From assembly GCF_020171785.1 (NCBI RefSeq), contig NZ_JAIVAE010000003.1:62001-126000 (forward strand): a stretch of DNA of 64,000 nucleotides, read 5' to 3'. The notes beneath the pieces are model-generated. The model saw nothing but the letters and a program-made list of their open reading frames with translations. It had not been told where the DNA came from and made no database searches. This stretch comes from Guptibacillus hwajinpoensis. GTDB lineage: Bacteria; Bacillota; Bacilli; Bacillales; Guptibacillaceae. The position numbers were made by a program, and so were the translations under genes. This document shows positions 60,261 through 62,733 of this stretch, in pieces (the stretch's first letter is position 1; the number at the start of each line of letters is the position of its first letter).

Positions 60261-61244
60261 ATGAAGTATCGACAGTTAGGACAAACCGACTTAAAGGTAA
60301 GTGAAGTTAGTTTTGGTACATGGGCCATCGGCGGAGCGTGGGGCAAGACAAATGACGCCCAAGCTCTTGAATCACTTCAATACGCGATCGATGCTGGGGT
60401 TAACTTCTTTGATACAGCAGATGTATACGGTGATGGTCATAGTGAAAAACTTCTTGCGAAAGCAACAAAAGGACAGGAAGATAAGATCCATATTGCAACG
60501 AAATTTTGTCGTGCAGGAGATATCCATGATCCAGCTACTTACTCTGAAGAAAGTGTGCGTTCATACTGTGAAGCAAGCTTAAAACGATTGGAACGCGATC
60601 AGATTGATCTTTTTCAAATCCACTGTCCACCAATTGAAATACTAAAAGATGGAGCTGTATTTCAAGTATTAGATAAGTTAAAGGAAGAAGGAAAAATACG
60701 TTATTACGGTGTTAGTGTTGAAACCGTAGAAGAAGGACTGCTATGTCTCGACTATCCAAGGGTTAGCGCATTGCAAGTTATTTTCAACCTTTTTAGACAA
60801 AAACCTTTAGAAGAGTTGTTTCCTAAAGCATATGAACAAGGGGTAGGAATCCTTACTCGGGTTCCACTTGCAAGCGGGTTATTAACTGGGAAATTCAAGA
60901 AAAACTCATCATTCGAAGAAGACGACCATCGTCACTTTAATCGAAATGGAGAAGCCTTTAATGTTGGGGAAACCTTTGCAGGGATTGAATTTGAAAAAGG
61001 GGTTGAATTAAGTAATGAAATCGATTGGATTGCTCGAGATCGAGAGAGCATGACAACCGCAGCCTTAAAATGGATCCTTGAACATAAGGAAGTCTCTTGT
61101 GTTATTCCTGGCTTTAAAAATAGTGACCAGGTGAAACAGAATCTTAAAGCGGTAGAAGTTCCTGATTTTACGAAAGAAGAGATGGAGAAGCTTAAAGCGT
61201 TCTATGAGCAAGAAGTTCATGGACTAATTAGAGGAGCTTATTAA
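60261..61244 (+). CDS. Aldo/keto reductase
   Basis: 327 aa NADPH-dependent TIM-barrel reductase. The catalytic tetrad is visible: Asp and Tyr in FFDTADVYGDG, Lys in HIATKFC and His in LFQIHCP. NADPH contacts lie in ALKWILEHKEVSCVIPG. The site GGAGGGG precedes the ATG. It is followed 22 bases later by the OsmC-type selenoprotein gene and the two probably form one transcript ending at the 61735 terminator. That pairing suggests detoxification of carbonyls and peroxides, an inference. Confidence 0.88.
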   Translation: MKYRQLGQTDLKVSEVSFGTWAIGGAWGKTNDAQALESLQYAIDAGVNFFDTADVYGDGHSEKLLAKATKGQEDKIHIATKFCRAGDIHDPATYSEESVRSYCEASLKRLERDQIDLFQIHCPPIEILKDGAVFQVLDKLKEEGKIRYYGVSVETVEEGLLCLDYPRVSALQVIFNLFRQKPLEELFPKAYEQGVGILTRVPLASGLLTGKFKKNSSFEEDDHRHFNRNGEAFNVGETFAGIEFEKGVELSNEIDWIARDRESMTTAALKWILEHKEVSCVIPGFKNSDQVKQNLKAVEVPDFTKEEMEKLKAFYEQEVHGLIRGAY

Positions 61245-61266: not shown

Positions 61267-61731
61267 ATGGCAAACCCAATTGAAATTGCTAATATTCGGA
61301 TTGAGCAAGATAAAGATAAAAGCCGACGAGCTTATATCGCTGATTTCAAAGAACCTATACACTATGGAGTACATGGTGGTGTAAAAGATTTTTACAAAGC
61401 CACACCGGAGGTAGAACAACCTTCGACCCTCGATCATATTGTTGCAGCAGCTGGCGGCTGACTAACCGGTACATTATCCGGTGCGCTGGAAGCGCGCCAC
61501 ATACCAACTTATCCAAATAAGGTATCAGGAAAGTTTGAAGGAATCATTGAAGCGCCAGATGGCGTTCTTAAAATCACAAAAATCCGCTGTCATTATAAGT
61601 TAATTATTCCTTCTGAGAAGCGGGATGCAGCTGAAAGAGCGCTTAATGTGTTTGAACGAGGATGTCCTGTAGCCCAAACGTTAAAAGACTCCGTCGCTTT
61701 TGAACATGATTGGGAGATTATAGAAGAATAA
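61267..61731 (+). CDS. OsmC-family protein with predicted selenocysteine at TGA codon 65
   Basis: Read through one in-frame TGA (61459-61461), the frame gives 154 aa with both halves clearly OsmC-like. Before the TGA stand HYGVHGG and STLDHIVAAAGG; after it LTGTLSGALEARHIP, KITKIRC and RGCPVAQTL. Relatives have AAGGCLTG, so the TGA sits exactly at the redox-active Cys, and the partner Cys133 in RGCP is kept. No further stop occurs before TAA 61731. A SECIS-like hairpin lies downstream. OsmC-like selenoproteins are a known prokaryotic group. AAAGGAG precedes the ATG. A nonsense mutation is the alternative; the Sec machinery must exist elsewhere in the genome. Confidence 0.85.
61480..61498 (+). 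promoter_or_regulatory. Predicted bacterial SECIS element
   Basis: GGTGCGC (61480-61486) pairs with GCGCGCC (61492-61498), seven pairs with one G-T, around the loop TGGAA. The loop is five bases, has G at its second position, and begins 25 bases after the TGA, all within the usual bacterial SECIS limits. The stretch is far richer in GC than its surroundings. Confidence 0.75.
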
Positions 61732-61734
61732 ATG

Positions 61735-61773
61735 AAAGGCTGATGAATAAAACCATTCATCAGCCTTTCTTAT
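61735..61773 (+). terminator. Terminator of the AKR/OsmC transcript
   Basis: 14-base perfect arms (61735-61748 and 61755-61768, beginning AAAGGCTGATG) with an AAAACC loop, then CTTATT. Confidence 0.85.
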
Positions 61774-61845: not shown

Positions 61846-62733
61846 TTATTTCAGCTCAACAACCGGTTCAGCTAGATTAATAAACTCTTTCACAGCAAAA
61901 GGCAAATATTTATTTCGTTTCCAAATCAATCCGAGTTCTAAGTTTAAATTAGAGTGTCTAAGCTTTAATGTTTTAATTCTCTCATTATGGATTGAATTGG
62001 CAATTTTACTCGGTAGAAGTGCAATACCCAGTTTCGCTTCTACCATTTCAATCATAAAATCCTTTTGTGAGCTTTGACAGACGATGTTAGGGTAAAATTC
62101 ATTCTTCGAGCATTCTTCTAGAATTCGATCATATAAAGTGAAGTCATCTCGATACAAAATAAAGGGCTCATATTCGAGATCAGCAAGGTGGATTTCAGAG
62201 TACACTGCTAACGGATGCTCATCATGAACAATTAACATGAGCGGATCTTTGATAACCTGTATTGCTTCAAAACTACTATTTTTTAAAGGTGTGTTACAGA
62301 TCAATCCAATATCAAGAGAACCGTCATCAACGCCTTGTTTTATCATTTTGGACCCTACTTCAGTAAGTAGAATTTCTACTGTAGGATAGAGTGCCTTAAA
62401 CTGGCTGATGATCTTTGAAAAAAAAGCTGCACCGATGATAGGGGGGATCCCAATTTTGATTTCCCCCTTTTTTAATTCTGTAATATCTGAGAGCTCTGCT
62501 GTTAGGTTTTGAAAAGCATGCAGAACATGCTGGGCATTGACCAAAACAGCCTTACCAGCATCAGTCAATTCTAATTGCTTGGAACGATAGAAAAGGGGGA
62601 TGCCAAGCTCTGTTTCCAGATTCTTGATGGCTTTACTAATCGATGGTTGTGACACATGAAGTGTCGATGCTGCTTTTGTAAAACTTAGCTGTCTCGCCAC
62701 TTCTGAAAAATACTCAAGATGACGAATCTCCAA
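61846..62733 (-). CDS. LysR-family transcriptional regulator divergent from malate synthase G
   Basis: 295 aa regulator. The HTH is seen in LSFTKAASTLHVSQPSISK, and the effector domain from about residue 88 shows KIGIPPIIG and GIALLPSKIA. The start codon is TTG with TAGGAG upstream. It diverges from glcB with a clear LysR-type dyad between them, so it probably controls glyoxylate-related metabolism. A small dyad overlaps its stop codon (61830-61853), perhaps a weak terminator. Confidence 0.85.
   Translation of the reverse strand: MEIRHLEYFSEVARQLSFTKAASTLHVSQPSISKAIKNLETELGIPLFYRSKQLELTDAGKAVLVNAQHVLHAFQNLTAELSDITELKKGEIKIGIPPIIGAAFFSKIISQFKALYPTVEILLTEVGSKMIKQGVDDGSLDIGLICNTPLKNSSFEAIQVIKDPLMLIVHDEHPLAVYSEIHLADLEYEPFILYRDDFTLYDRILEECSKNEFYPNIVCQSSQKDFMIEMVEAKLGIALLPSKIANSIHNERIKTLKLRHSNLNLELGLIWKRNKYLPFAVKEFINLAEPVVELK

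Follow-up and report, generated by a model that had tools for sequence, protein, structure and literature searches.

The OsmC-family gene in the window, by which we mean the whole 64,000-nucleotide stretch of Guptibacillus hwajinpoensis DNA analyzed here, raises a simple question: does the TGA in the middle of its reading frame silence the gene, or is it read as an amino acid, and if so, as which one and for what chemistry? The frame starts with ATG at 61267, ends with TAA at 61729-61731, and contains one internal stop in 154 codons. When translated through that stop, the product matches Pfam OsmC (PF02566) with 48.2 bits against a cut-off of 27.5. The frame reading and the Pfam score thus bear out the preliminary description, in which a single TGA lay inside an otherwise intact OsmC frame with Cys133 kept and no second internal stop. 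The features discussed below are as follows.

60261 to 61244, plus strand: aldo/keto reductase gene, 22 nt upstream of the OsmC gene and perhaps co-transcribed with it here.
61267 to 61731, plus strand: predicted OsmC-family selenoprotein gene, 154 codons plus TAA, with putative selenocysteine (Sec) codon 65 and Cys codon 133.
61459 to 61461, plus strand: in-frame TGA, codon 65, predicted to be read as Sec; in alignment it matches the first redox Cys position in four paralogues from the same genome.
61480 to 61498, plus strand: predicted bacterial SECIS hairpin, GGUGCGC-UGGAA-GCGCGCC, 25 nt from the UGA to the loop, -12.6 kcal/mol.
61663 to 61665, plus strand: Cys133 codon, the conserved partner (putative resolving) cysteine, within GCPVAQTL.
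61734 to 61769, plus strand: long palindromic hairpin directly after the stop, a possible transcription terminator (-23.3 kcal/mol, z -8.8).

The TGA site reads U65-L-T-G, a UxxG motif. Alignment with Cys-type OsmC homologues, which the preliminary description had proposed, places Sec65 on the first and Cys133 on the second Cys of the four paralogues. Cys at the Sec65 site was seen in these distant OsmC/Ohr proteins of the same genome; the expectation that relatives have Cys there did not hold for close relatives, which have TGA too. Eight in-frame TGA bridges in the window, including the OsmC gene, passed the length filter; by their coordinates, the other seven overlap or immediately precede longer frames and were set aside. 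Rfam returned 0 matches in the window at gathering thresholds. Plasmid comparison gave no match, and PHROGs gave none.

The stop itself is what suggests a pseudogene or a sequencing error, in which TGA is a nonsense mutation of TGT or TGC and the gene is dead. Against this, the same TGA stands at the site in 118/118 loci read by script, from many genera. These loci combine the genus, order, phylum, and named-collection sets and include some places fetched twice; once repeats are removed on the basis of the 90 nt that begin with the TGA, 96 distinct rows are left. In the genus, the gene is found in all 14 genomes, each time with exactly one TGA. Among 397 genomes of the order, exactly one TGA occurs in 46/46 full-length orthologues, which come from 45 genomes and 20 genera and are 56-99% identical; below them, fragments aside, identity drops to about 22-33%, and the OsmC-like proteins found there have no TGA. 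The protein is conserved on both sides of the TGA, with 51 invariant columns across 23 aligned sequences. A pseudogene would find some encouragement in a few other genomes that hold decayed or partial copies (G096, G350, G270, G204, and the second copy in G317); among matches that appear to lack the TGA, those of G350 and G961 are C-terminal pieces, and those of G204 and the second G317 copy are N-terminal pieces. Separately, loci L143, L139, L140, and L141 are frameshifted or partial gene copies in genomes that retain selA, as if the loss were recent. Some genomes have two full copies, both with TGA (L032 and G032 C28:21448-21906; L129 and L133).

The TGA extends well beyond the order. In 398 genomes of the phylum, we found eight matches in six genomes, seven of them with one TGA; the remaining match, which has a TAA, is the second part of a copy broken by a frameshift. 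The named collection, for which 80 of 190 loci are listed, is mostly from bacilli, with four loci from Rokubacteria, Armatimonadetes, and Acidobacteria metagenome-assembled genomes (MAGs). Bacillus-like versions of the gene also occur in records titled Chryseobacterium sp. ISL-80 (L075) and Pseudomonas sp. ISL-84 (L113), titles that are probably wrong. The phylum of the Rokubacteria MAG yielded 67 matches in 59/95 genomes; at E<=1e-20, TGA is present in 65 of 66 matches, one of which also has a TAG. The 66th (G815) breaks off at this codon after an abrupt sequence change, and as its last matched residue reads Cys, it is ambiguous. The phylum of the Acidobacteria MAG yielded 33 matches in 32/297 genomes, with one TGA in 26/26 matches at E<=1e-20. 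The codon site was read directly only in fetched loci, and other matches were counted by TGA content; for the two MAG phyla, the site itself was displayed in 54 of the 55 loci fetched at E<=1e-20, with L196 failing the motif filter. Six other matches in these two phyla are TGA-free, all with E above 1e-10 and covering only about positions 52-151. No full-length Cys orthologue was found in the genus, order, phylum, or two MAG phyla as searched or among the loci listed from the named collection.

We then considered what could direct the reading of this codon. The hairpin behind the UGA folds with seven pairs and the loop UGGAA, or, as folded, with eight pairs and the loop GGA. Bacterial SECIS elements are described, in the available text of PMC13188914, as having an apical loop of 3-9 nt, an upper stem of 4-16 bp, a distance of 16-37 nt from the UGA, an MFE of <= -7.5, and a G among the first two loop positions. 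With its loop UGGAA, seven pairs, 25-nt distance, and -12.6 kcal/mol, the hairpin in the window falls within the constraints given in that text. Single-sequence folding gave modest z-scores (-1.6 to -3.0 overall; -1.6 to -2.0 for segments of 45-72 nt), and it is the comparison across relatives that argues for the hairpin. All six compared pairs form in 92/96 distinct relatives; after recoding with synonymous codons at the family's own usage (100 trials), they form together in a mean of 0.57 and a maximum of 3 of the 96 rows. Counted as individual cells in the same rows, 568/576 stem pairs form, whereas recoding leaves 289 on average and 317 at most. Because the rows are related, none of these hairpin counts represents independent events.

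The codon pattern is localized. Three hairpin codons are nearly fixed (GCG in 94/96, CTG in 93/96, and GCG in 93/94), synonymous sites elsewhere are mostly near expectation, and some codons beside the UGA and the hairpin are also raised, such as that of the Gly preceding the UGA, which is GGC in 80/96. In a wider set that includes distant phyla (140 distinct rows), the hairpin holds up less well: the six pairs form together in 113/140 and the inner four in 129/140, being missing in the other 11. Two-sided changes in these 140 rows convert G27-C35 to A-U in ten, C26-G36 to U-A in three, and C28-G34 to U-A in one. Loop places two and three are GG in 122 rows, AG in 17, and GT in one; the 17 AG rows therefore have G only at the third place of the five-base loop and fit a SECIS element less well. 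Taken across relatives, these patterns indicate a hairpin under selection, one that synonymous recoding destroys. Such selection also speaks against a dead gene, and together with the conserved TGA and flanking protein sequence it makes a pseudogene or sequencing error exceedingly unlikely.

The remaining question for the codon is whether the host can insert Sec. Its assembly (4.24 Mb, 35 contigs) carries selA (564 bits against an NCBIfam cut-off of 268), selB (359 against 242), selD (418 against 125), and a tRNA-Sec that scores 60.2 bits (cut-off, 47) and has the anticodon tca, i.e., UCA, by ARAGORN; all are on contig C2, with selA and selD close by. As a gauge of these models, those for selB and tRNA-Sec match all 14 control genomes, though above cut-off in only 2/14 and 5/14, respectively, and selA has a match in 1/14. 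The preliminary description had supposed that the host likely carries selA, selB, selC, and selD and had named absence of selB and selC from the genome as what would refute the selenoprotein; since selA, selB, selD, and tRNA-Sec are present, that reading came through its main test. Host selD has an in-frame TGA of its own, in the N-terminal KGG-U-GCK motif (L030 15312-15314; G000 contig C2), followed by a hairpin whose short apical loop is UGA. SelD and the OsmC protein are unrelated, and their genes are alike in having an in-frame TGA followed by a hairpin; because selD is also interrupted by TGA, the likely selenoproteins of the host number at least two. Formate dehydrogenase was set aside as a Sec client: it has four matches in the host's own genome, one of them above cut-off, and none with a stop.

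Carriage of the gene also goes with carriage of selA. At E<=1e-60, selA is present in 45/45 carriers of the order versus 181/397 genomes overall (hypergeometric, 1.5e-17) and in 20/20 carrier genera versus 67/135 (1.5e-7), statistics in which kinship is ignored except through the per-genus count. As all 45 carriers have selA, none of the 216 order genomes without it has a full-length orthologue. The earlier statement that selenoproteins are not general in Bacillaceae was only half right: selA occurs in 181 of the 397 genomes of the order. Among distant carriers, selA was found in 8/8 tested.

These results bear on whether the UGA might be read as Cys or Trp, or simply read through, rather than as Sec. 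Sec systems can sometimes insert Cys, which lends this reading some plausibility. Against it stand the selA gene in every order carrier and every distant carrier tested, a SECIS hairpin within published constraints, and a site that is a redox Cys, not Trp, in the paralogues. We consider a reading other than Sec very unlikely. With the Sec machinery in the genome and with the TGA and hairpin conserved across genera and phyla, the selenoprotein first proposed for this locus is upheld: the apparent stop is almost certainly read as selenocysteine, and we infer that Sec is inserted at codon 65 in vivo. In the proposed mechanism, tRNA-Sec and SelB would insert Sec at UGA codon 65, guided by the SECIS hairpin directly downstream within the coding sequence; Sec65 would replace the fold's first (peroxidatic) cysteine, with Cys133 in the place of the resolving one. 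We regard this overall picture, an OsmC/Ohr selenoprotein with SECIS-guided Sec at codon 65 and Sec65 and Cys133 in the peroxidatic and resolving places, as highly probable.

An OsmC-like selenoprotein with the motif UxxT has been described from the Sargasso Sea (PMC1088965 and, in its available text, PMC13188914), and so we asked how the family in the window relates to it. The curated seleno-OsmC family NF041052 (OsmC_like_Se) likewise consists of OsmC-type proteins whose first redox position is Sec; the two members we read carry AFULMT, i.e., UxxT, and from this motif NF041052 would be the Sargasso family. In contrast, UxxG is found in 118/118 and 55/55 rows of the family in the window, although the 118-row set was found with a pattern requiring that G, which every locus had. 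Tested against NF041052, 8 of 14 members match at 20.2-28 bits, far under the cut-off of 95, and 6/14 have no match at E<=0.001; membership in NF041052 was ruled out by these scores. Two BLASTP comparisons of the family with NF041052 members detected no significant similarity. In a scan of 94 genomes from the phylum of the Rokubacteria MAG, NF041052 matches above its cut-off carry one TGA in 21/21 cases. Several genomes have the two families side by side on one contig, among them G839 C17, G841 C121, and G843 C115, where about 2 kb at most separates the genes. At places where the family in the window was not found, weak NF041052 matches under the cut-off have one in-frame TGA each (e.g., G876 C93:423-803 and G841 C1:246757-247131) and are perhaps a third group of OsmC selenoproteins.

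The Cys-based Ohr/OsmC hydroperoxidases (PF02566, TIGR03562, and TIGR03563) share the predicted fold and both redox positions but have Cys where the protein in the window would have Sec65, and the family falls below their NCBIfam cut-offs; for TIGR03562, the gene in the window scores 24 bits and other members at most 35, against a cut-off of 85.8. A review treats differing Sec motifs as separate subfamilies, and in its available text OsmC occurs once (PMC13188914). In the freely accessible literature searched (including the available text of PMC2398784, PMC9312934, PMC5029168, and PMC1794560), we found no report of a UxxG OsmC selenoprotein. Because its NF041052 scores lie below the cut-off and its motif is UxxG rather than UxxT, we assign the family to a new subfamily of OsmC selenoproteins, which is apparently wide and Sec-only.

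What the protein does was approached through its predicted structure and its neighbors. An AlphaFold model built from the 23-sequence alignment has a mean pLDDT of 87.7, and in Foldseek it matches OsmC and Ohr crystal structures, with 2onf, 1ml8, 1ukk, and 1nye topping the list (best E, 6.1e-10). In Ohr, as described in the available text of PMC5962072, peroxide oxidizes the first Cys, the second Cys joins it in a disulfide, and Arg and Glu assist. In the family in the window, Asp56-His57 is invariant in both the 23-sequence and the wider alignment, with Asp-Tyr instead in 3/118 and 14/55 rows, and Arg20 reaches 90% or more in one alignment and less in the wider one. The Ohr Glu aligns near Ser53 and is not kept at that place.

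The lack of this Glu, the distance from named OsmC subfamilies such as TIGR03562, and the absence of a conserved partner gene among the 80 named loci listed would all suit a selenoprotein that is not a peroxidase but uses the OsmC scaffold for, e.g., thiol or disulfide exchange or the reduction of persulfides or electrophiles. For the neighborhood comparison, three frames of at least 80 aa on each side were clustered by BLASTP at 30% identity and 50% cover, and no cluster was shared by more than 8 of those 80 loci. Only 3 of the 80 loci listed (of 190) have the aldo/keto reductase as their upstream neighbor, and a functional tie to it is not supported. On the other side of the gene, a terminator pattern scan scores the 61734-61769 hairpin on the minus strand only (1 found, 1.5 expected in shuffles), and a LysR-type regulator (61846-62733, minus strand) faces the OsmC gene; its nearest family is CidR, under the cut-off (340 of 415 bits). 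Against an activity other than peroxidase, the fold is that of a peroxidase, and the Sec/Cys pair occupies its peroxidatic and resolving positions. We therefore view such an activity as a substantial possibility, if a somewhat less than even one, and a selenium peroxidase as the likeliest function, with odds slightly in its favor. A hydroperoxide or similar oxidant would then be reduced through a Se-S intermediate.

Nearly all known selenoproteins have Cys homologues, and many were discovered via Sec/Cys pairs, according to the available text of PMC13188914. A widespread family for which the searched sets yielded no Cys orthologue would be harder to discover in that way. Since the selenium version is the sole version found, standard gene callers are likely to shorten the gene. 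The chemical need for selenium looks strict in this family, and the gene offers a client for the Sec machinery in a bacillus whose formate dehydrogenase matches have no TGA. We tentatively suggest, while giving it somewhat less than an even chance, that the family is an old selenium-only OsmC branch spread over Bacillota, Rokubacteria, Acidobacteria, and others; that hosts giving up selenium use lose it instead of converting it to a Cys enzyme; and that it, rather than formate dehydrogenase, may help keep Sec decoding in aerobic bacilli.
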